This document shows positions 35,898-46,761 of a stretch of 64,000 nt of DNA, one piece after another. Every line of letters starts with the position of its first letter. Position 1 is the stretch's first letter. The position numbers and the translations under genes are program-made. Source of the stretch: Natronolimnobius baerhuensis (GTDB lineage Archaea > Halobacteriota > Halobacteria > Halobacteriales > Natrialbaceae); the NCBI RefSeq assembly GCF_002177135.1, contig NZ_MWPH01000002.1:930001-994000 (forward strand). Reading direction: 5' to 3'. A model generated the notes under the pieces. That model did no database searches. It was not told where the DNA came from and saw nothing but the letters and a program-made list of their open reading frames with translations.

Positions 35898-37310
35898 ATG
35901 GCAGACCACGGAAACGGCGGGCAGGCGAACGAAGACACACTCGAGCGCGCCCTCGGCCGCGCGTGGACGGACGACCGTGCCTGGAACCTGCTGACGAACC
36001 TGACCGAACTCCCGCATCGAATGGGCGGCTCGGCTGGCGAGCGCCGCGCGGCTGAATCCGTCCGGGCAGCCCTCGAGGACGCCGGACTCGCGGACGTGCA
36101 GGTTGACGAGTTTCCGATGCAGTGCTGGGAGCGCGGGTCGACGACGCTCACTGTTCTGGGCGGCGACGGATCTGACAGCACCACCTCGACAGCGGACGGA
36201 ACGGACACGGCCCGCCTCGAGCGCGAATTCGACGCCCTCGCGCTCCCGTACTCGCCCGCCGCCAGCGTCGAGGGACCGCTCGTCGACGTCGGCTACGGCA
36301 CCCCCAAGGAGATTGCTGCGGCCGATCTGCAGGATGCAATCGCCGTCGCGAGTACGACGACGCCGCCGGAACAGCGCTTCGTCCACCGCATGGAGACGTT
36401 CGGTCACGCCCTCGAGGCCGGTTCCACCGCGTTCATCTTCGCCAACCACGTTCCCGGTCAGTTACCGCCGACGGGCGCGCTGACGTTCAACACCGAAGCC
36501 GCCGCACCCGGTGTCGGCGTCAGCGCGGAAACGCACGACTGGCTCACGGAGTACGCCGAGCGCGGGACGCGCACACGAGTTCGGGTCGACGCCGAGACGA
36601 CCGCAGGCTCGAGTCAGAACGTCCACGGAACTGTCGGCCCGGACACCGACGAGGAAGTCCTCGTCGTCGCCCACTACGACGGCCACGACATCTCCGAAGC
36701 CGCGCTGGACAACGGCTGTGGCATCGCGACCGCCGTCGCCGCGAGCGCGATCCTCGAGTCGATTGCGGACGACCTCGCGTGTCAGGTCCGGATCGCCGGC
36801 GTCGGCTGCGAGGAGATCGGTCTGTTGGGTGCCGAAGCCCTGGCCGAGGGAGCCGACCTCGAGTCGGTTCGAGCCGTGGTCAACGTCGATGGCGCAGGCC
36901 GCTTTCGCAATCTCCGGGCGCTGTCACACGGCTCCGAGTCGCTGGCCGACCTCGCGGCCGACGTGGCGAGCGATGCTGGCCAGCCGCTCGGACACGATCC
37001 GGATCCACATCCGTTCAGCGACCACTGGCCGTTCCTTCGGGCCGGGGTGCCGTCGCTACAACTGCACAGCGAACCACCCGAGGGCCGCGAACGCGGGCGT
37101 GGCTGGGGCCACACTACAGCCGACACGCGTGACAAAGTCGACCCGCGGAACCTGCGCGAGCACGCAATGCTGACGGCGCTGCTAGTGCGGGCACTGACGC
37201 GGGCCGAGATTCCGCGGACCGATGCGGACGAGCTGCGCGACCAGTTGCGAGAACAGGAGTACGAACCCGGCATGCGGGCAGCCGATATCTGGCCGCCAGG
37301 GTGGGACTGA
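35898..37310 (+). CDS. M28-family zinc peptidase with PA-like insert
   Basis: A 470-residue aminopeptidase-type protein. The co-catalytic zinc ligands are visible: AHYDGHD (His and Asp), ALDNGCG (bridging Asp), GCEEIGLLGA (catalytic Glu pair), NVDGAG (Asp) and FSDHWPF (His). A protease-associated domain is inserted between the N-terminal helix and the catalytic core. There is no signal peptide, so it is probably cytosolic. It is divergent from pepF, which suggests a shared role in peptide turnover. Confidence 0.92.
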   Translation: MADHGNGGQANEDTLERALGRAWTDDRAWNLLTNLTELPHRMGGSAGERRAAESVRAALEDAGLADVQVDEFPMQCWERGSTTLTVLGGDGSDSTTSTADGTDTARLEREFDALALPYSPAASVEGPLVDVGYGTPKEIAAADLQDAIAVASTTTPPEQRFVHRMETFGHALEAGSTAFIFANHVPGQLPPTGALTFNTEAAAPGVGVSAETHDWLTEYAERGTRTRVRVDAETTAGSSQNVHGTVGPDTDEEVLVVAHYDGHDISEAALDNGCGIATAVAASAILESIADDLACQVRIAGVGCEEIGLLGAEALAEGADLESVRAVVNVDGAGRFRNLRALSHGSESLADLAADVASDAGQPLGHDPDPHPFSDHWPFLRAGVPSLQLHSEPPEGRERGRGWGHTTADTRDKVDPRNLREHAMLTALLVRALTRAEIPRTDADELRDQLREQEYEPGMRAADIWPPGWD

Positions 37311-37340
37311 GATCGGGTTTCAGTGTGCCTACCGCGGACG

Positions 37341-38123
37341 TTATGCCGGCTCGCTTCCGGCTCCGTCCGCTCCGTCCTGTGCGTCGGCGGTCTCGGTCAC
37401 GCTCGGCAGGTTCGGATCGCGGTACGGGTTCCGACCATAGGCAGGCAGGTCGTCCTCGAGTTGCTCCTTCAGGACCCGCCGAAGCCGGTTGAGACTCGTC
37501 GTATCGAGCCCGTACGTTGCGGCGAGTTGCTTGAACCGTGACTCGTCGGTGATGTCGTGGGCACGGTACTGCGCGAAGAGGTCTTCCATCCGGTCGGCAG
37601 ACAGCGCCTGCGCGTCGATATCGTCCAGCCCGAAATAGGCTCGGCGGTCGACATCGACCACGTGGCGAATCGCGACGAGCGCGACCTTCTCGATGGCGCG
37701 CTGGCTGCCAAACTCCGTCAGATCGATCTCGTCCATGACGCCGAGTGCGAGGTCGCGCTGCCACGGCGTCACCTCGAGTGCGTTACACAGTGCTTGCGTC
37801 GTCCGGAGTCGGTCGAGGTGGTGGGCGCGCTCGCTGTAGCCGGGCGTCGCCGCGTGCTGTTCGTCGTGGAGGCGGCGGACGCTCTCGGAGAGGTCCGCGT
37901 CGGGCGACTCCGCGCGGCCGATGACGGTCGCACTCGGCGTGACGATCCCCCACTGGCGGACCGTCGAGTCGCGCTGGACGTCCGCCCGGGAGAGCGACCC
38001 GGAGCCGGGCCGGGTCTCGAGGCGGCGCTCGCGCCCGTCGTCGTACTCGCCGCGTGGAGGCTGCTCGCGATTGTGCTCGCGGCCCGGACCGCGCGGACCG
38101 GGTTCGGGACCGTCGTCGTGCAT
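37341..38123 (-). CDS. haloarchaeal RNA polymerase subunit epsilon-type protein
   Basis: A 260-residue soluble protein. The N-terminal 50 residues are basic and disordered-looking. The body carries the pattern STVRQWGIVTPSATVIGRAE, ESVRRLHDEQHA, TQALCNALEVTPWQRD and DTTSLNRLRRVLKEQLEDD, which I recognise from haloarchaeal proteins annotated as DNA-directed RNA polymerase subunit epsilon. Biochemical evidence for the subunit role is limited, so the name is by family. It is convergent with the M28 gene. The repeat array begins 140 bp upstream of its start. Confidence 0.78.
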   Translation of the reverse strand: MHDDGPEPGPRGPGREHNREQPPRGEYDDGRERRLETRPGSGSLSRADVQRDSTVRQWGIVTPSATVIGRAESPDADLSESVRRLHDEQHAATPGYSERAHHLDRLRTTQALCNALEVTPWQRDLALGVMDEIDLTEFGSQRAIEKVALVAIRHVVDVDRRAYFGLDDIDAQALSADRMEDLFAQYRAHDITDESRFKQLAATYGLDTTSLNRLRRVLKEQLEDDLPAYGRNPYRDPNLPSVTETADAQDGADGAGSEPA

Positions 38124-38263
38124 CTTGGTACTCGCTCAGACAGGGAGACGGAAAAAGGCTCGCTCGTTTCTGTCGGCATCTGTCAGACGTGTTGCAAATC
38201 GAAGTCGATGAGCGCAGTCGCTCGACGGTAAGGTGACCCGCAAAAAGCCCTTCGTAGCTTCAT

Positions 38264-38286
38264 CTTGTGACCAGAAGCACTTAAAG
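38264..38286 (+). repeat. TTGTGACC repeat, copy 1 (core only)
   Basis: Core CTTGTGACCAGAAG followed by CACTTAAAG. The 5' flank belongs to neither of the two flank types seen in the other copies. First of ten same-strand copies. Confidence 0.85.
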
Positions 38287-38389
38287 AACGTCAGGCAGGA
38301 GTCCGCTGGCGGTCGGCCGTACCTCGAGTCGACACCCTCGAAAACAGCGGGCAGAATCGCGAACGTCGTGACTATCGAACGCGGATTCT

Positions 38390-38438
38390 CGGAGAATTTC
38401 CCGTCATAACTTTATCTTGTGACCAGAGGTACGTAAAG
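38390..38438 (+). repeat. TTGTGACC repeat, copy 2 (flank type II)
   Basis: Flank CGGAGAATTTCCCGTCATA, then core CTTGTGACCAGAGG followed by TACGTAAAG. It lies 63 bp upstream of the small membrane protein gene. Confidence 0.85.
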
Positions 38439-38500
38439 AACTGCGGGATGTAGCCCACACAACCAACACGTGTATCTCATGCGTCACGAATGAGAGGTAC

Positions 38501-38749
38501 ATGACGACCGAGACGGAACGCCAGCGAGATCTGCTGTCGATGCTCGTTGCCATCCAGTTCACCCTGTTCATCATCCTGATCCCGTGGGCGTGGCCGCTGC
38601 TGGCCGTTCCAGTGCTCGTGACGATTCACGTGCTGCGCGCAGAGTACCACCGGCGACTGGCCGAACACGAATCAGGCTCTACAACTGGAGCGCCCTCATC
38701 CGCGACACAGAACCTCGAGTCCGACGACGACTCACTGACAGAGCAGTAA
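38501..38749 (+). CDS. small membrane protein inside the repeat array
   Basis: An 82-residue protein: a basic/acidic N-terminus (TTETERQRD), a long hydrophobic region that can form two helices (about 12-47), then a polar C-terminal tail ending DDDSLTEQ. The start is the ATG at 38501. It lies between repeat copies 2 and 3. No family recognised, and the coding call rests on length, amphipathic design and composition. Confidence 0.6.
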   Translation: MTTETERQRDLLSMLVAIQFTLFIILIPWAWPLLAVPVLVTIHVLRAEYHRRLAEHESGSTTGAPSSATQNLESDDDSLTEQ

Positions 38750-38783
38750 CTCGAGAACGTATCGACTGGTCACGCACACTACC

Positions 38784-38990
38784 CGGAGAATATCCCGTCG
38801 TATCTATAGTAACAACTGCAACTATTTTCACACTGATCGCCGATCCTGCTCGCGGTTCACTGCGTTCGCCGCTCGCTTTTCCGCGGTTCTCGCTCACTTC
38901 GTTCACTCCGAACCGCGCATCCGTCTGGCGATCAGGTGTGCATTGACTTGCAGTGGCTACTATACTCCTTGTGACCAGAGGCACTTAAAG
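38784..38990 (+). repeat. TTGTGACC repeat, copy 3 (flank type II), split by MITE-like element
   Basis: Flank CGGAGAATATCCCGTCGTAT, interrupted at CTA by the 156-bp element 38807-38962, then TACTC and core CTTGTGACCAGAGG followed by CACTTAAAG. Copies 5 and 8 show the same site uninterrupted (CGTATCTACTC). Confidence 0.85.
38807..38962. mobile_element. MITE-like element, copy 2, inserted in a repeat with TA duplication
   Basis: 156 bp with imperfect terminal inverted repeats of about 38 bp (TAGTAACAACTGCAACT at one end; TAGTAGCCACTGCAAGT at the other in complement), both running to GATCGCC. TA flanks each side (38805-38806 and 38963-38964), while the empty site in copies 5 and 8 has a single TA. 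The centre (38870-38917) is shared with the repeat at 15982-16113. No coding capacity. TA duplication is typical of IS630/Tc1-mariner-type transposition. Confidence 0.8.
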
Positions 38991-39047
38991 GAAAACCGCT
39001 TCGAGACCAAAACGAGTGCAGCGTTCCCACTGGGGAACGTGAATCCA

Positions 39048-39100
39048 GTAGAACCCGCCTTCCTGCTATATCTTCACCTTGTGACCAGAGACACTTAAAG
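39048..39100 (+). repeat. TTGTGACC repeat, copy 4 (flank type I)
   Basis: Flank GTAGAACCCGCCTTCCTGC then TATATCTTCAC, core CTTGTGACCAGAGA followed by CACTTAAAG. It ends 18 bp from the 3' end of the nucleotidyltransferase gene. Confidence 0.85.
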
Positions 39101-39118
39101 GAAGATAGCCACCGGCTG

Positions 39119-40054
39119 TCACTGCACAGCAGCGATCAGGTCGTCGACGAACGCGTTCAACCGCTCCGGGTCGGGGCCCTCGAGTGCGTGAACCGCCGGA
39201 TCGATCCGTTTCGGCGGGTGTGCGAACTCGCGGCCGACCTGATCGCCGGCGACTGCGCTCCCCTCACCGCGACGCTTTCGCTCGAGGAGGTCGCGGGCGC
39301 GGTCGATCCGGTCGGCCTCGAAGACCGCCGGGGCCTGTTCGTCCAGAAACATCTCGAAGTCGATCACCGGCAACTCGTGTGCGCCATCGTCGCCCGTTGC
39401 CGTGAGATAGTACGCGGACATCGCCGCGCGGGTGATCGTGAGGTTGCGCTTGACCGTTGGCTTCGTCTGCGTTTCCGAAAACCGCTCGTCGTCAGCGGCG
39501 ATGGTCATGGTCTCCTCGCCGGTTCCGTCGTCATCGCAGGCGACGAGATAGCCGTCTGCCGTGCGCTCGAGGATGGGAAAGATCTCGTCGTCGCTGCGGA
39601 CCAAGTGGTCCGAGAGGTACTTCCGGTAGTTGGTCGATGCGATGGCGCGCCAGTCGTGATACAGGTCGATTGGATTGTACGCGCGCGTCATGTACGCCTC
39701 GAGGTCGGTCGGATCGAACTGCGTTCGATACTGGACGGGGCTGCGAAGGAGATCGAGTGCGCTCTCGTTCGAGTCGGCGAGCAGAGAGGCGAAGGTCCGG
39801 ACGCTCAGCCCCTGTAGTTCGATCTCGCCGCGGCTGTCGTCGATGGTCTCGGTGGTGCCGCCGAGATGGGCGTACTGCCGAAGGTCGTCGGGGACGAAGA
39901 CGAACCCAACGTCGTAGTCGCTGTCAGGACTCGAGCCGTTCCAGGCGCGGCTGCCGCGGGCGACGGCGAGCGGGATTGCGATTTCGTGTGCCGCCTCGAG
40001 ATCCGCGAGTGTGGCGTCGATACGTTCCCGAACGGCAGTCGAAACGGATGGCAT
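39119..40054 (-). CDS. RlaP-like nucleotidyltransferase (DNA polymerase beta superfamily)
   Basis: A 311-residue protein. The nucleotidyltransferase motif is clear near the N-terminus: ARGSRAWNGSSPDSDYDVGFVFV, with GS and the DxD metal pair (described by GSRAW and SDYDVGF). This matches the RNA-ligase-associated (RlaP, PF10127-type) subgroup. The following segments (LDLLRSPVQYR, NYRKYL, KRNLTITRAAMSAYYL) also fit. No RNA ligase is adjacent, so an RNA-repair role is only inferred from the family. It lies between repeat copies 4 and 5 and is transcribed against their direction. Confidence 0.85.
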   Translation of the reverse strand: MPSVSTAVRERIDATLADLEAAHEIAIPLAVARGSRAWNGSSPDSDYDVGFVFVPDDLRQYAHLGGTTETIDDSRGEIELQGLSVRTFASLLADSNESALDLLRSPVQYRTQFDPTDLEAYMTRAYNPIDLYHDWRAIASTNYRKYLSDHLVRSDDEIFPILERTADGYLVACDDDGTGEETMTIAADDERFSETQTKPTVKRNLTITRAAMSAYYLTATGDDGAHELPVIDFEMFLDEQAPAVFEADRIDRARDLLERKRRGEGSAVAGDQVGREFAHPPKRIDPAVHALEGPDPERLNAFVDDLIAAVQ

Positions 40055-40079
40055 GGCGATGGCTCGAAGTGAAACGGTC

Positions 40080-40129
40080 AGCGAGAAAATCCTGTCGTAT
40101 CTACTCCTTGTGACGAGAGTGACTTAAAG
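40080..40129 (+). repeat. TTGTGACC repeat, copy 5 (flank type II, intact)
   Basis: Flank AGCGAGAAAATCCTGTCGT then ATCTACTC, core CTTGTGACGAGAGT followed by GACTTAAAG. It gives the empty site for the element in copy 3. It lies upstream of the nucleotidyltransferase start, in antisense orientation. Confidence 0.85.
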
Positions 40130-40199
40130 AACGGCGGGCCTCGAGTCGACTCACGCGAACAGTTTGGAGACAGCGGCCGCTGTCACGAATGCGATATCG

Positions 40200-40252
40200 G
40201 TAGAACCCGTCTTCCTGCTATATCTTCACCTTGTGACCAGAAGCACTTAAAC
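40200..40252 (+). repeat. TTGTGACC repeat, copy 6 (flank type I)
   Basis: Flank GTAGAACCCGTCTTCCTGC then TATATCTTCAC, core CTTGTGACCAGAAG followed by CACTTAAAC. Last copy before the ABC exporter operon. Confidence 0.85.
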
Positions 40253-40299
40253 GAACGCCGATCTCGGCTGGCCTGTGGGACAGCGAACCACACGACCGG

Positions 40300-40307
40300 T
40301 ATATTAA
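40300..40307 (+). promoter_or_regulatory. TATA box of the ABC exporter operon
   Basis: TATATTAA about 148 bp upstream of the GTG start, predicting a leader of over 100 bases, unlike the leaderless genes elsewhere. The start is backed by a Shine-Dalgarno-like GGAG (40434-40437) and GGTGA (40440-40444). Confidence 0.5.
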
Positions 40308-40447
40308 TTGATGACTCGAGACCACACAATCGTATGTTCTCTTCGGTGGGTCGATTCACGGCGCGGTCGTCTCGATGGCAGCGACACAGGGGTTCCACCC
40401 TCCGGGTCGCTCGCAGCATTTCGCACACCGTTTGGAGTGGGTGAGAC

Positions 40448-42409
40448 GTGACGGAGAGCCAGTTCGAGCCACCCGACCACGTCGACAACTCGCTGTGGCT
40501 GCTGGTCCGCCGGTACGCCCGGCCCCACGCGCTCCGGTACGTCCTCGCGGCAATCGGAACGCTGATCGCCCAGATCCCCCAGCGGCTGCCGGCGCTCGTC
40601 ATCGGCGTCGCGCTGGATGCGATCCTCCTGCAGGACACGCCGTACGCGCTCCCGTTGCTTCCCGACGGCTGGATTCCCGAGACAACGACCGGTCAGGTCC
40701 AGTTCACTATCGGGTTGCTCGTCGCGGCCTACGTCCTCGACGGGACGATGACCTGGCTCGCCGGCCGACTCGAGGGGACGGCGCGGCTGCAGACGCTCCA
40801 CGAGATTCGAGTCGACGCCTTCGATGCGGTCGTGGGCCACGAACGGTCGTTCTTCGACCGCCACCAGACTGGCGACGTCATGAGCGTCCTGAACAACGAC
40901 GTCTCGAACATGAACCGCTTCGGGAGCAACGCCTACGAGGGAATCAGGCTCTCGGCGCAGATCCTCGTCGCCTTCGCGTTCATGCTCACGATCCACGTCC
41001 CGCTGGCCGCGCTACTGGCGCTCATGCCGCTGCTGCTGATCGGGCTCTGTCAGTGGTACACGACCCGCGTCGGGCCCCGCTACGAGCGAGTCCGCGAGAG
41101 CGTCGGCCGGGTGAACTCGCGACTCGAGGACAGTATCGAGGGCATCGCGACGGTCAAAGCCTTCGCGCGCGAGGACGCGGAACGGGATCGGCTCGAATCC
41201 GCCTCGCGGTCGTACCTCGATCGCAACTGGTCGGTGATCCGGCTGCGGCTTGTCTTCAGTCTCGCGAGCTGGGTGATCGTCTCGGGCGCGTTCATCGGCC
41301 TGTTCTCCCTCGGCGCGTATCTCGTCCTCGAGGGGACGCCAGCGTGGTTCGGCGGCTCGCTGACCGCCGGCGCGCTGTTGACGTTCCTGATGTACAGCCA
41401 GTCGTTCTACGCGCCGATCCGCCAGCTGATGCTCGACGTGCTGGACAGCTACGAGGATGCGCTGGCCTCGAGCAAGCGAATCACCTCGGTACTGGAAGGC
41501 GACCACCCCGACCGGAACGAGGGCCGGGAACTGACGGTCCTCGAGGGTCGCCTCGAGTACGAGGACGTCTCTTTCACCTACGAGGGGGCCGACGAGGAGA
41601 CGCTAACCGACGTGAGTTTCGCGGCCGAGCCGGGATCGCTCGTCGGCGTCGTCGGTCCGACGGGTGCGGGAAAGTCGACGCTGACGAAGCTGCTCTTCCG
41701 GTTCTACGAGCCGGACCGTGGCGCGATCCGAATCGACGGCACCGACATCAGCGATGTCTCCCGCCGGAGCTTGCGCGAGCACCTCGGCTACGTCTCGCAG
41801 GACCCGTTCCTCTTCTACGGGACGGTGCGGGAGAACATCGTTTACGGAGTCCGTGAGTTCGACACTCGGGCTGACGCACCAGAGATCGACCACGCAGACG
41901 TCGTCGCCGCCGCGAAACTCGCGGGTGCCCACGAGTTCATCACCGACCTCGAGGATGGGTACGACACCCAGGTCGGCGAGCGCGGTGCAAGCCTCTCGGG
42001 CGGCCAGCGCCAGCGAATCGCCATCGCGCGGGCGCTGCTGAAAGACCCCGACGTCCTCGTGCTGGACGAGGCGACGAGTCACGTCGACAACGAGACCGAA
42101 CGCCAGATCCAGCGAAGTATCGACGCGACGGCGGGCGAACAGACGACAATCGCGATTGCCCATCGACTGTCGACGGTTCGCAACGCCGACCAGATCCTCG
42201 TCGTCGACGACGGCGAGATCGTCGAGCGCGGCACCCACGACGAACTCGTCGAACAGGACGGCCTCTACGCCGATCTCTGGCGGGTACAGGTTGGCGACCT
42301 CGAGGCCGTCTCAGAGGCGTTCCTCGAGCGTGCCCGTGCCCGCTTTGGTGAGTCTGCGCAGCGGCGTGTCACAGAGGAAATCGAGACGACTGAGGAGGTG
42401 TCGCGATGA
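40448..42409 (+). CDS. ABC exporter half-transporter, subunit 1
   Basis: A 653-residue fused membrane/ATPase protein of the MsbA/MdlB type. Six transmembrane helices are followed by an ATPase domain with Walker A GPTGAGKST (near residue 402), signature LSGGQRQR, Walker B VLVLDEATSHVD (catalytic Glu present) and the switch His in AHRLST. It starts with GTG at 40448, supported by the GGTGA site just upstream. Its end overlaps the next gene by ATGA. The substrate (lipid, peptide or drug) cannot be deduced. Confidence 0.93.
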   Translation: MTESQFEPPDHVDNSLWLLVRRYARPHALRYVLAAIGTLIAQIPQRLPALVIGVALDAILLQDTPYALPLLPDGWIPETTTGQVQFTIGLLVAAYVLDGTMTWLAGRLEGTARLQTLHEIRVDAFDAVVGHERSFFDRHQTGDVMSVLNNDVSNMNRFGSNAYEGIRLSAQILVAFAFMLTIHVPLAALLALMPLLLIGLCQWYTTRVGPRYERVRESVGRVNSRLEDSIEGIATVKAFAREDAERDRLESASRSYLDRNWSVIRLRLVFSLASWVIVSGAFIGLFSLGAYLVLEGTPAWFGGSLTAGALLTFLMYSQSFYAPIRQLMLDVLDSYEDALASSKRITSVLEGDHPDRNEGRELTVLEGRLEYEDVSFTYEGADEETLTDVSFAAEPGSLVGVVGPTGAGKSTLTKLLFRFYEPDRGAIRIDGTDISDVSRRSLREHLGYVSQDPFLFYGTVRENIVYGVREFDTRADAPEIDHADVVAAAKLAGAHEFITDLEDGYDTQVGERGASLSGGQRQRIAIARALLKDPDVLVLDEATSHVDNETERQIQRSIDATAGEQTTIAIAHRLSTVRNADQILVVDDGEIVERGTHDELVEQDGLYADLWRVQVGDLEAVSEAFLERARARFGESAQRRVTEEIETTEEVSR

Positions 42410-44289
42410 GCGACGACCCCGGCCGCGAGGGTGAAGGCGAAATCGCGGCCGCCGCCGACGAACGGTGGCCGCTGGTCGCCCTGTTGCGCGAACACGGTCG
42501 GGGCGACCTGAAGTGGCTCGGCCTCGGCAGCGCCACCTCTGCCGGCTCACAGTTTCTCTCGAACATCGACATGCTGATCATCGGGCTGGCGTTCGACGCG
42601 ATGTTCAACGACGAGCCCTACGCGCTGTTCCTGGTGCCCGACGCCTGGATTCCGGCCGACCCGGCCGGACAGCTCCTGTTTACGGTCGCGCTGCTGGCAG
42701 GAATAAAGGTGATTGACATGGGCCTGGCCATCTTCTCGCTGTGGGCGCTGTTCCTGTTCGGCCAGCGAACCATCCACCGCATCCGAGTCGCCGTCTACGA
42801 TGACGTCCAGCGCCTGGACGCCGGCTTCTTCGACGACCAGCGGACTGGCGAGGTGATGAGCGTGCTCAACAACGACGTCAACTCGCTAGAAGAGTCGCTG
42901 ACGCAGGGGCCGAACCTCGCGGTCTTCGCGACGACGACCGTCGTCAGTTCACTGCTGTACATGCTGATCCTGAACTGGCAGTTAGCGCTGCTCTCGCTGG
43001 GGTTCGTCCCGATCATCGCCGTCGTCAACTGGTGGTTTAGTCGGCAACACGAGCAGCGCAACGACGAGGTCCGCGAGGAGACCGGCGTCGTCAACGCCCT
43101 GCTGGAGACGAACGTCAGCGGCGTCTCGACGGTCAAAGCCTTCGGTGGGGAGCGATACGAGACCGGCCGCGTCAGAGACGCTTCCGACGCCCAGCGAGAG
43201 GCCTCCTGGTACGCCCACGTGGTCGGCGTCCTCCACCAGCCGTCGATGCGGCTGCTCGCCGGCGCGGCGTTCGTCCTCACCCTGTTCGTCGGCACCGAGT
43301 GGGTCCTCGACGAGCGGTTCTGGCTCTTCGCCGGCACGATCACGGCCGGCGAACTCATTCCGTTTCTCTACTACACGCAGCAACTCGCGCAGCCGATGCG
43401 GTTTCTCGCCTGGGTGACCGGCCTCTACAAGGCCGGAAAGGCCGCCGCAAAGCGCGTCCTCGGGCTTCGGCGACTCTCCCCGCCGCGCGAGGACGGCGAC
43501 CACGTCCTCGAGAATCCGCGTGGTGCGGTCGAATTCGACGACGTCACGTTCGGGTACGACGCCGACGAGGACACCGACCCGGTCATCCGAGACGTGTCCG
43601 TCGATGTCGAACCCGGCGAGACGGTCGGGCTGGTCGGCCACACGGGCGCAGGCAAATCGACGCTGCTGAAGCTCTTGCTGGCGTACTACGAGCCTGACGA
43701 AGGGCGAATTACGGTCGACGGTCACGACCTGCAGGACGTTTCGCGGTCGTCCTTACGCCAGTCGATTGGGTACGTGCGACAGGACCCGTTCCTGTTTTCG
43801 GGGACGGTGCGGGAGAACATCGCCTACGGGCTGGATGATCCCGCAGACGGCGACAGCACGGTCACCGACGACGAAATCGTGGCCGCCGCTCGAGAGGCAG
43901 GTGCCCACGCGTTCATCACGGAACTGGACGACGGCTACGACACCGAGGTCGGCCAGCGTGGCACTCGACTCTCGGGCGGCCAGCGCCAGCGCATCGCCCT
44001 GGCCCGCGTGTTGCTGACTGACCCCGCGATGTTCGTCTTCGACGAGGCGACCAGCCACGTCGACAACCGGACCGAAGTCCTGATTCAGCGGAGTCTCGAC
44101 CGACTCACGGCCGAGAAGACGACGTTCGTCGTCGCCCACCGGCTCTCGACGGTGCGAAACGCAGATCGGATTCTCGTTCTCGACGACGGCGAGATCGGCG
44201 AACGCGGCACGCACGACGAACTGCTCGAGCGCGATGGAACCTACGCCGACCTCTGGAAGGTACAGGTTGGCGAACTCGAGGCCGACTGA
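42406..44289 (+). CDS. ABC exporter half-transporter, subunit 2
   Basis: A 627-residue partner of the preceding protein with the same design. Walker A is GHTGAGKST, the signature LSGGQRQR, Walker B MFVFDEATSHVD with catalytic Glu, and switch His in AHRLST. Both members keep a full set of catalytic residues, unlike many heterodimeric exporters in which one site is degenerate. The ATG overlaps the upstream stop by 4 bp, so a heterodimer is likely. Repeat copies lie on both sides of the operon. Confidence 0.93.
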   Translation: MSDDPGREGEGEIAAAADERWPLVALLREHGRGDLKWLGLGSATSAGSQFLSNIDMLIIGLAFDAMFNDEPYALFLVPDAWIPADPAGQLLFTVALLAGIKVIDMGLAIFSLWALFLFGQRTIHRIRVAVYDDVQRLDAGFFDDQRTGEVMSVLNNDVNSLEESLTQGPNLAVFATTTVVSSLLYMLILNWQLALLSLGFVPIIAVVNWWFSRQHEQRNDEVREETGVVNALLETNVSGVSTVKAFGGERYETGRVRDASDAQREASWYAHVVGVLHQPSMRLLAGAAFVLTLFVGTEWVLDERFWLFAGTITAGELIPFLYYTQQLAQPMRFLAWVTGLYKAGKAAAKRVLGLRRLSPPREDGDHVLENPRGAVEFDDVTFGYDADEDTDPVIRDVSVDVEPGETVGLVGHTGAGKSTLLKLLLAYYEPDEGRITVDGHDLQDVSRSSLRQSIGYVRQDPFLFSGTVRENIAYGLDDPADGDSTVTDDEIVAAAREAGAHAFITELDDGYDTEVGQRGTRLSGGQRQRIALARVLLTDPAMFVFDEATSHVDNRTEVLIQRSLDRLTAEKTTFVVAHRLSTVRNADRILVLDDGEIGERGTHDELLERDGTYADLWKVQVGELEAD

Positions 44290-44340
44290 CGGCGAGCACT
44301 CGGACGAATAGCGCAGTCGCTCGAGAAAAGTGAAGACGTA

Positions 44341-44393
44341 ATAGAACCGGTCTTCCTACTATATCTCTACCTTGTGACCAGAAGCACTTAAAT
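44341..44393 (+). repeat. TTGTGACC repeat, copy 7 (flank type I)
   Basis: Flank ATAGAACCGGTCTTCCTAC then TATATCTCTAC, core CTTGTGACCAGAAG followed by CACTTAAAT. First copy after the exporter operon. Confidence 0.85.
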
Positions 44394-44473
44394 GATGAGC
44401 GGAATCCGCCCTCGAGGAACGGAGTCACGCTCTCGAGTGGGGGCGCAAACGCAGCGCTGTCGAGTGCAGGTCG

Positions 44474-44521
44474 CGGAGAATGTCCGTCGTATCTACTCCT
44501 TGTGACGAGAGGTACTTAAAG
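44474..44521 (+). repeat. TTGTGACC repeat, copy 8 (flank type II, intact)
   Basis: Flank CGGAGAATGTCCGTCGT then ATCTACTC, core CTTGTGACGAGAGG followed by TACTTAAAG. Second empty-site comparator for the insertion in copy 3. Confidence 0.85.
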
Positions 44522-44538
44522 GGAGTACGCAGGGAAGG

Positions 44539-44622
44539 GATAGTAGCCACTGCAGGTCAATGGCCACCTGATCGCAGACGAGTCGACGATCAGTGTGTGA
44601 ATAGTCGCAGTTGGTATTATAG
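44539..44622. repeat. MITE-like palindromic element, copy 3
   Basis: 84 bp: GATAGTAGCCACTGCAGG to CTGATCG, a 12-bp centre, then CGATCAGTGTGTGAATAG to GGTATTATAG. The arms are imperfect complements of each other and match copies 1 and 2. It lies between repeat copies 8 and 9. Confidence 0.75.
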
Positions 44623-44669
44623 AGACGACTGAAACGCACCACAATGCTCTCGCTCTGAGCAAAAATGCC

Positions 44670-44722
44670 GTAGAATCCGTCTTCCTGTTATATCTTCACC
44701 TTGTGACCAGAGACACTTAAAG
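44670..44722 (+). repeat. TTGTGACC repeat, copy 9 (flank type I)
   Basis: Flank GTAGAATCCGTCTTCCTGT then TATATCTTCAC, core CTTGTGACCAGAGA followed by CACTTAAAG. Here and in copy 4, CTTCCT in the flank is complementary to AGGAAG after the core. Confidence 0.85.
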
Positions 44723-44794
44723 GAAGGTCGGGAGTGCAACGAACGACAGCGAGCGAGGTCGCCAACACAGTCGCTACTCGGAAAGAGAGACGCA

Positions 44795-44849
44795 GTAGAA
44801 CCGGCGTTTTCCCGTCACAGCTTCACCTTGTGACCAGAGGCACTTAAAC
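44795..44849 (+). repeat. TTGTGACC repeat, copy 10 (flank type I, diverged)
   Basis: Flank GTAGAACCGGCGTTTTCCC then GTCACAGCTTCAC, core CTTGTGACCAGAGG followed by CACTTAAAC. Last copy; the mptA gene starts 160 bp further on. Confidence 0.85.
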
Positions 44850-45009
44850 AACGACGAGAGATTGAACAGTCCTCGAGTGCGGAGCGACTCGTCTCGACTA
44901 GTGGACAACGACGGGCGTATCGCTCGAGGCGAGACCCCAACCCGCAGTGACCACGGGCGAAATTGTGTGTTCCGAAAGGCCTAATCGGACGCTGTCCTGA
45001 GTATCGCCA

Positions 45010-45951
45010 ATGAGTCATCAGCTTCCGGACGTGCAGGCAACGTCGCCCGACGTGACCGTTGGCCTGAGTCAGGTCGGCGTGACCGGCGTCGAAAAGCTCG
45101 TCAAGATCGCCCGCGAGGACGACCGCCCAATCGTCCTCACTGCCGAATTCGAGGTCTTCGTCGACCTCCCCGCGTGGCGCAAAGGCGCGGACATGAGCCG
45201 CAACATGGAGGTCATCGACGAAATCCTCGAGGATGCGACCCGCGAGGAAGCCTACCGCGTCGAGGACGTCTGTGGCGACGCCGCCGAACGGCTCCTCGAG
45301 AAACACGACTACACTTCCACGGCGAAGGTCTCGATGGAGGCAGAGTTCATGCGCCGCGAGAAAACGCCCGCGAGCGACCGCGAGACCCAGCACACCGTCG
45401 ATATCATCGCCTCCGCGACAGCGACCGACGAAGGCACGCGCGAGGAGATTGGCGCGGAAGTGACGGGGATGACCGTCTGTCCGTGCTCGCAGGGAATGTC
45501 AGCTGCGCGCGCGAAACAGACGCTCGAGGATCTGGGCGTCGAGGAGGAGACGATCACCGAGTTCTTAGACGAAGTCCCACAGCCGGGTCACTCCCAGCGC
45601 GGGCACGCGACGCTGACGGTCGAAGCAAGCGGTGATCCCGAGGTCGATCTGAACGACGTCATCGACATCGCGCGGGATTCGATGAGCGCGCGGATTTACA
45701 ACCTCGCAAAGCGCCCGGACGAGGATCACATGACCTTCGATGCGCACTCGGACGCGAAGTTCGTCGAGGACTGTGTCCGCGCACTGGCTGACGGCGTCGT
45801 CGATGAGTTCGACCACCTCGCAGATGATGCGGTCATTACGATGAAACAGTCCAACGACGAGTCGATCCACCAGCACAATGCCCACGCAGAGCGTATCGTC
45901 GAGATGGAGACGCTGCGCGAGGAAGTCAACGGCGGCAACGACGGCGAGTAA
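45010..45951 (+). CDS. mptA: GTP cyclohydrolase MptA (FolE2/COG1469 family)
   Basis: Metal-dependent GTP cyclohydrolase, 313 residues. The metal/catalytic cysteine motif [10 protein letters not shown] lies near residues 155-164; the N-terminal half has [25 protein letters not shown] (noted by LPDVQA and [10 protein letters not shown]) and the C-terminal half [14 protein letters not shown]. In haloarchaea this enzyme feeds both folate and the preQ0 precursor of archaeosine, which links it to tgtA and arcS in this window. It lies just right of the repeat array. Confidence 0.95.
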
Positions 45952-45957
45952 CGGCGC

Positions 45958-46761
45958 TCAAAACTGCAACGGCTCAGCCTCTTCCCACCGCGGGACGAAC
46001 TCCTGATTGACGCTCGCGGCGAACTCCGGATCTTTCAGGTCGATCATGCCGAAGGCCTCGCCCGAAGAAAGCGGATTCGGTACCTGAATACAGATCTCGA
46101 GATCGTCGAGGATGTTGAACGAGCCCGTTACGTCGTCGTTCGTCCGCACGTCGAAATCGTCCCGCGCCTGCAGCGTCTCGCGATATCGCCGCCCCACCTT
46201 CTCCGAGAGCGAGGCAACCATCTCGCGCGTCATCAACACGTCAACGGACACGCCGCGGTCGAGTGCGTCCTCGAGTTGTGCCAGTACCTCTTCGCTGACG
46301 GCCTGCATGTCCCGTTCGGGGACCGGATCGGCAGCGACCATCACGATGTGGTTGTCCGCGGCTGCCAGTCGCTCGAGCAAGAGATCGGTCGTCTCCTCGG
46401 GGCCGACGGCGGCGGTCCAGAACTGGTCCTCGACGGGATCGGCCGCGTCGAGTTCGTCCGAGAGGTCGTCGACGATTGACTCGTACTGGTCGGCCTTTTC
46501 GTCGAGTTCGCGTTTCTTGTCCTCGAGCAGCCGATCCAGCGCGGTCGATGGCTCAACCGCGACGTACTTTTTCGGACGGCTCGCGGTCTGACTCCGCACG
46601 AGATTGTACTGTTCGATGCTGTTGAGCACGTCGTAGATCCGACCCATCGGCACGTCGCTCGCTCGCGACAACTCCTTGGCCGTTGTTGGCCCCGTACTCA
46701 ACAGTGCACGATACGCTCGAGCCTCGTACTCCGAGAGCCCGAGGTCCCTAAGACTCGCCAT
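45958..46761 (-). CDS. TrmB-family transcriptional regulator
   Basis: A 267-residue regulator. The N-terminal winged helix reads LGLSEYEARAYRALLSTGPTTAKELSRASDVPMGRIYDVLNSIE (noted by LGLSEYEARAYRALL and MGRIYDVL), followed by a coiled coil (about 80-105) and a sensor domain. The ATG at 46761 is preferred because the domain begins immediately after it; the longer start at 46788 adds only nine residues. TrmB proteins often control sugar genes; the regulon is unknown. Its 3' end faces mptA 7 bp away. Confidence 0.9.
   Translation of the reverse strand: MASLRDLGLSEYEARAYRALLSTGPTTAKELSRASDVPMGRIYDVLNSIEQYNLVRSQTASRPKKYVAVEPSTALDRLLEDKKRELDEKADQYESIVDDLSDELDAADPVEDQFWTAAVGPEETTDLLLERLAAADNHIVMVAADPVPERDMQAVSEEVLAQLEDALDRGVSVDVLMTREMVASLSEKVGRRYRETLQARDDFDVRTNDDVTGSFNILDDLEICIQVPNPLSSGEAFGMIDLKDPEFAASVNQEFVPRWEEAEPLQF

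Follow-up and report, generated by a model that had tools for sequence, protein, structure and literature searches.

We analysed a window of 64,000 nucleotides from Natronolimnobius baerhuensis (contig NZ_MWPH01000002.1, positions 930,001 to 994,000) in which a short DNA element is repeated ten times between a gene for RNA polymerase subunit epsilon and mptA. A genome-wide pattern search confirmed ten copies of the core CTTGTGACSAGANNNACTTAAA, all on the plus strand, with starts at 38264, 38416, 38968, 39078, 40107, 40230, 44371, 44499, 44700 and 44827; the last copy ends at 44848, giving an array that spans 38264-44848. The core is exact in nine of the ten copies and carries one mismatch (ACGTAAA) in the copy at 38416. 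It was found nowhere else on either strand of the 3.91 Mb genome with up to three mismatches allowed, and a reversed-pattern control gave 0 matches. A reading of the window from its letters alone (the sequence-only reading) had described the ten same-strand copies, two types of 5′ flank and the intervening genes, namely a small open reading frame (ORF; 82 aa), an RlaP-family gene (PF10127) and two ABC exporter genes; all of these are present. The even genome-wide scatter of the core that it had held up as the contrary outcome was not seen, the ten clustered copies being the only ones. Its confinement of the repeat to 38.26-44.85 kb holds for this genome and fails for relatives, which also have dispersed copies, and the array does not stand by itself but is bounded by the divergent epsilon gene and the sense mptA gene, a layout that recurs in relatives. 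The features are as follows.

37341..38123 (minus strand): epsilon gene, 260 aa, proposed trans-acting partner of the element; homologues annotated 'DNA-directed RNA polymerase subunit epsilon'
38246..38295 (plus strand): element copy 1, core 38264-38285; extent taken from the sequence logo
38398..38447 (plus strand): element copy 2, core 38416-38437; ACGTAAA variant
38501..38749 (plus strand): 82-aa ORF between copies 2 and 3; hydrophobic stretch by eye, homologue in locus L040, no Pfam match
38785..38806 (plus strand): 5′ flank of element copy 3, separated from its core by an inserted sequence resembling a miniature inverted-repeat transposable element (MITE)
38964..38999 (plus strand): remaining 3′ part of element copy 3, core 38968-38989
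39060..39109 (plus strand): element copy 4, core 39078-39099; about 20 nt from the RlaP stop codon and directed toward RlaP
39119..40054 (minus strand): RlaP-family nucleotidyltransferase (PF10127, E 3e-25), between copies 4 and 5
40089..40138 (plus strand): element copy 5, core 40107-40128; the minus-strand reading of its 5′ end may hold the RlaP promoter
40212..40261 (plus strand): element copy 6, core 40230-40251
40448-42409 and 42406-44289 (plus strand): two ABC exporter genes (PF00664, PF00005), between copies 6 and 7
44353..44402 (plus strand): element copy 7, core 44371-44392
44481..44530 (plus strand): element copy 8, core 44499-44520
44682..44731 (plus strand): element copy 9, core 44700-44721
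44809..44858 (plus strand): element copy 10, core 44827-44848
45010..45951 (plus strand): mptA (TIGR00294, E 1.5e-122), in relatives often the gene at the far end of the array

The sequence-only reading had placed a MITE between copies 8 and 9, and this insertion (about 44541-44620) has a counterpart of about 157 bp (about 38807-38963) that separates the type II flank of copy 3 from its core. The two MITE-like insertions are related and lie in opposite orientation, with the terminal words TAGTARCMACTGC and an apparent TA duplication. The one in the 8/9 spacer is absent from the same-genus locus L040.

The element is directional and about 50 bp long, with the consensus CCC[GT]TC[GA]TA[GT]CTnCAC-CTTGTGACCAGARGCACTTAAA-GAACGRnCGG. 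A logo built from 281 distinct copies gives a strong signal between about -16 and +31 relative to the core; the search pattern itself accounts in part for the invariance of the core letters. Searched with at most two mismatches, the pattern occurs in 39 of 61 genomes, compared to a single match for the reversed control; a scoring matrix trained on pattern matches from the same loci gave 409 versus 0, a result that partly repeats its input. An exact scan of public genomes returned 105 stretches, of which the best 80 are mostly from Natrialbaceae, the others including Halarchaeum, Halobonum, Haladaptatus, Haloarchaeobius and Halosimplex. The element is thus widespread among haloarchaea and not peculiar to this genome, and an identity with a named RNA family was not found (0 Rfam matches at E≤1 in window positions 37000-46000).

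Within the element, CAGARNNACTTAAA places a TFB-recognition element (BRE)-type A/G run and then a TATA box at a fixed distance, as in haloarchaeal core promoters, which bears out the earlier comparison of the CTTAAA end with a TATA box. The pattern A[AG]N2-4CTTA[AT] occurs in 10 of 30 tRNA upstream windows of the same genome versus 5 of 2905 control windows (windows from 30 of the 42 tRNA genes detected; pattern chosen after viewing tRNA upstream sequences). In the available part of a study of Haloferax start sites, the corresponding motifs are CGAAA as BRE and TTWT as TATA (PMC4983044).

A core of this kind, together with a typical unit length of 108-150 bp, could suit the earlier suggestion that each copy is the promoter of a short regulatory RNA. 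When the window was compared with the same-genus locus, and four Natronococcus-like and four Natrinema-like loci with one another, the elements were almost unchanged while the spacers drifted by insertions and deletions, and it follows that the constraint is on the element and not on a downstream product. The downstream sequence is unconserved even within a genus, neither terminator-like T-runs nor an AT-rich melting region at +25 to +40 (AT content 0.28-0.36) was found behind the elements, and Rfam matches nothing in the region. We therefore regard a short RNA behind each copy as improbable; the alternative offered beside it, a protein-binding array, fits. Leaderless protein genes behind the copies were rejected on the lack of an ATG peak at +45, the expected start.

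The element keeps close company with epsilon. A strong epsilon match (E≤1e-50) was obtained in 96 of 195 genomes of the order. The element pattern is present in 90 of those with the match and in 1 of the 99 that lack it (Fisher p 5e-47, which ignores relatedness), and five of the 99 hold diverged paralogues only. Three of the six misses (genomes G118, G074 and G091) have a variant element beside epsilon, the remainder being G136, G162 (72% complete) and G177. The association extends to a single genus of the window's family, in which G012 has both element and epsilon while G152 and G187 have neither. In loci fetched by protein match, an outward-facing element lies beside 25 of 27 distinct epsilon genes, divergently upstream in 23 and outward on the 3′ side in 7; the five of 32 loci left out of this count, in which no distinct full gene was called, all show the element. 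Across all 82 epsilon genes, most of them in loci retrieved through the element itself, it lies divergently upstream in 77 and on the other strand of the same region in 0. In many relatives the array extends from beside the epsilon gene as far as mptA, and RlaP frequently lies in between; other loci have single copies only.

The sequence of the element also changes with epsilon. The 3′ half hardly varies (TTG-NNN-C-N-AGA-NNN-ACTTAAA); the 5′ half falls into classes, among them class A (TCGTATCTnCAC) and class B (CTCACTACGAACC). A tree built from 46 epsilon proteins places every class-B row except L230 in a single clade (8 rows, support 99/95). The class regex is coarse and L122 was assigned to class B by hand; L318 owes its B label to copies at other places in its genome, and the tree was built without the C and D paralogues. 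Genomes G007, G010, G012 and G034, all four from the window's own family, fall in this clade beside Halosimplex and genomes from families f7 and f8. When copies in these four were collected with a pattern fixing only the 3′ half, all were class B by eye (G012 2/2, G010 3/3, G007 5/5, G034 5/5), and 11 of the 15 lie on contigs other than that of epsilon. Since all 15 copies are class B, the element class goes with epsilon, a gene that appears to have moved between lineages, rather than with the host. Epsilon genes were also seen on a Halorussus halophilus plasmid (L313, 63 kb) and on a Halorussus vallis plasmid (H2); plasmid-borne epsilon in some Halorussus may be a route by which epsilon classes pass between lineages.

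Diverged paralogues have variants of their own. The variant ATTGTYGCARGRANNNCTTAAAG occurs once in each of 6 of 16 paralogue-bearing genomes and in 0 of 3 genomes without a paralogue; it lies 3′ of the paralogue, at a distance of 105-293 nt from the part that was matched; the paralogues L235 and L247 have the variant CATATAGATAC. The L247/L314 paralogue, on Halobacterium hubeiense plasmid pSTJ003, stands two genes from a gene for TATA-box-binding protein and has its own element variant. A 284-aa neighbour in L044 was considered as a diverged epsilon and set aside, its 16-18% identity not being convincing.

As the support for epsilon consists of co-occurrence and co-variation, it would also suit a reader that is some other factor, an activator or a TFB paralogue, merely inherited with epsilon. 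Three observations make this improbable. Epsilon stays adjacent to the element across families whereas mptA and RlaP do not, tblastn with the window proteins finding neither of the two in loci from other families; diverged paralogues, of which one is plasmid-borne, sit beside variants of their own; and the class tracks the horizontally moved epsilon rather than the host family.

The idea that the copies serve recombination, or that they are a mobile repeat bringing gene cassettes with it, draws on the RlaP gene, the ABC pair and other genes that lie between copies, and on an RlaP stop codon that overlaps the element in 9 cases. Recombination does not predict a 5′ half that follows the epsilon clade, and for that reason we consider this explanation weak and very improbable. 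Furthermore, the BRE/TATA core is kept in the copies, some single copies stand beside one same gene family in four loci each (four neighbour-protein clusters), and general Pfam scans showed no recombinase among the neighbours, no systematic search for recombinases or integrases having been made. No IMG/VR contig carries the element pattern. Viral carriers were rejected: looser patterns gave 4 and 18 matches on contigs of 0.35-0.58 G+C with class-A matrix scores of -5.7 or less (not a fair test for the 4), and these 22 look like chance. A viral relative of one eps2 protein was likewise not found.

The window protein is a homologue of epsilon, tied to the purified subunit by annotation and by the published description under the same name as its homologues bear, as far as the available part of that article goes (PMC8305020). 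A tblastn search returned 11 plasmid records with homologues, 6 annotated as epsilon (H1-H4, H7 and H10) and 5 as hypothetical, with H1-H4 showing 57.5-62.0% identity over 79-82% of the protein. The window protein matches no Pfam or NCBIfam family at E≤0.01, none of 28 epsilon members matches a TFIIB family at E≤1, and a sequence-profile search in the PDB gave nothing credible. The full-length model had a mean predicted local distance difference test score (pLDDT) of 62, and for this reason the core was modelled alone. The AlphaFold2 model of the core (158 residues, pLDDT 79, predicted template modelling score 0.71) contains one cyclin domain. By title and chain, all 50 structural matches listed for it are TFIIB/TFB/Brf proteins or cyclins (Z 9.3-11.5; Z under about 13 is no proof of fold for helical proteins), the top one being 8tqc_B of the CDK8 module (Z 11.5). 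They include 5oqj_M (Z 10.6, root-mean-square deviation 2.3, 96 residues) and archaeal TFB 1d3u_B (Z 9.7, deviation 2.8, 100 residues). These alignments to TFIIB, Brf2, archaeal TFB and cyclins indicate that the modelled core likely has a TFIIB-like cyclin fold. Members of the TFB family have two cyclin repeats and a zinc ribbon. Given the lack of a TFIIB sequence match, the one cyclin domain modelled and the single cysteine of the window protein, epsilon would be a protein of TFB-like fold and not itself a TFB. The cyclin folds of TFB and TFIIB bind promoter DNA next to TBP.

Taken together, the co-occurrence and co-variation with epsilon lead us to propose the element as the site of this subunit: on balance, each copy is probably a recognition site at which epsilon-bearing polymerase assembles. 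That epsilon itself contacts the element seems to us the safer part of this proposal and quite likely. In the proposed mechanism, the 3′ half with its BRE/TATA core would be taken by TFB and TBP and the 5′ half would be read by epsilon via its single TFIIB-like cyclin domain, so that both halves together would seat the epsilon-bearing polymerase in one direction. Of 245 pairs of neighbouring copies separated by less than 1.5 kb, 238 have both copies in the same orientation. One polymerase complex per copy would fit the spacing, which seldom falls below about 108 bp: tandem gaps below 600 bp (n=181) have a median of 134 bp, a 5th percentile of 108 bp and a minimum of 63 bp, and the 5th-percentile value would be near the span of one polymerase complex. 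Helical phasing of the spacing was looked for and dismissed (Rayleigh p 0.29, 154 gaps). Feedback on epsilon itself appears likely because its gene adjoins outward-facing elements. Whether the element also fires as a promoter, rather than only seating the complex, is a near-balanced question on which we lean slightly to no. More tentatively still, epsilon might be a promoter-specificity subunit in the manner of sigma, which reads the 5′ half of its own class and travels with that class; the paralogues would then be private versions with private sites, and the sites, mostly without mRNA, would position polymerase so as to influence transcription nearby.

Several observations weigh against the proposal. 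A melting stretch and terminator signals are missing, as described above, there is no ATG peak at +45 (5 versus a mean of 3.2), and the ATG peaks at +25 (13) and +28 (11) come too early. Genome G177 has epsilon and no copy, G183 (an 87%-complete draft) has copies with no epsilon found, and two of the 27 epsilon genes (L229 and L238) lack an element nearby. L230 falls outside the class-B clade, two class-C paralogues with very long branches fail to group, and 10 of the 16 paralogue-bearing genomes have no match to the paralogue variant; a different variant occurs in two of these, G124 and G108, and a near match in G098. Foldseek E-values are weak (best 0.30 and 0.45, the latter for the core model), a co-evolving partner of epsilon could be the reader instead, and the single copies have no common gene theme.

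The lack of a conserved RNA, melting stretch, terminator and ATG peak at +45, together with the convergent and opposing placement of single copies, makes a non-initiating site the main rival: epsilon, with TBP and TFB, would act as a roadblock, insulator or chromosome-organising clamp with no RNA made. The elements lie almost entirely outside called genes (429 of 430, genes in the loci being called by a purpose-written script and not a standard caller). Single copies occur in convergent as well as divergent gaps; of the 45 single copies remote from epsilon that could be classified, 12 lie in convergent gaps, which make up 158 of 1161 gaps above 60 bp, a placement at least as frequent as expected. 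In same-direction gaps, single copies mostly oppose the genes (27 opposing versus 11 along, among 86 single copies; 14 versus 3 among the 51 away from epsilon). Against a mere roadblock stands the directional BRE/TATA core, kept as in real promoters, and we think this reading unlikely, if the most serious of the alternatives to an assembly site for epsilon-bearing polymerase.

The available part of PMC8305020 describes epsilon (rpoeps/OE_1279R) as an extra subunit of Halobacterium and a subset of haloarchaea, cites its first descriptions in 1983 and 1989, reports efficient transcription of native templates by polymerase that contains it, and calls its relevance enigmatic. In the portions of the literature on the subunit that were searched, no DNA element was tied to it. 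No description of the element was found in the literature on the subunit, on haloarchaeal intergenic repeats or on start-site motifs, subscription papers and supplements being outside the scope, and literature returned for the element's words included none on archaea, judged by title. The closest printed case found is the class I intergenic repeats of halovirus HF2, which are 56-58 bp long and carry promoters; in the available part of the report they resemble the element as directional repeats in haloarchaeal DNA that have a similar length, contain BRE and TATA and lie between genes (PMC8707807). Unlike the element they are viral and active in Haloferax without other HF2 genes, that part of the text mentions no cognate polymerase subunit, and their conserved words CTTTAAGT and CGTCTNNTAGAG differ from those of the element (compared by quoted words, not alignment) (PMC8707807).

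An element that is present with epsilon, nearly absent without it and changes with the epsilon clade offers a concrete DNA target for the role of this subunit; if the proposal is true, a polymerase subunit with a promoter-like site of its own would be unusual in archaea. Pairing of a small initiation factor with a dedicated promoter class is familiar from TFB/TFIIB and alternative sigma factors. Epsilon differs from these in having one cyclin domain in the model and in being described as a polymerase subunit, and its element has an extra constrained 5′ half. Promoter-type complexes may also sit on DNA without a gene product, as at yeast extra-TFIIIC sites and tDNA insulators; here the likeness comes from placement alone.

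The neighbourhood of the copies was also surveyed for an operator that would serve a gene set, and this candidate was dropped because the recurrent neighbours (Prs, Na/Ca exchanger, UbiA, MgtE, PhoU/TrkA-C, MutS, CDC48 and SerRS) have no theme. In four loci (L094, L123, L153 and L155, including Natrinema ejinorense and N. versiforme) a single copy occupies the gap between a gene of the mgtE type and a PhoU/TrkA-C gene convergent with it, and this shared placement suggests that single copies may be inherited vertically. RlaP, where present, lies between two elements in many relatives, with its stop codon within a few nucleotides of one of them in many loci. The RlaP start comes within 25-46 nt of the nearest 5′ edge of an element in the 12 shortest of 97 pairs, and in many copies the opposite strand of the 5′ end gives the BRE/TATA-like word TACGAAGGGCTTTT. 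Because this reverse-strand word lies so close to RlaP starts, some copies may double as the RlaP promoter. At the far border of the array, mptA has its own BRE/TATA-like word (TTCCGAAAG...TNAATCG; window positions about 44973-45010), about 28 nt before the ATG and separate from the element, which is strongly conserved across the aligned loci (same genus, Natronococcus-like and Natrinema-like).

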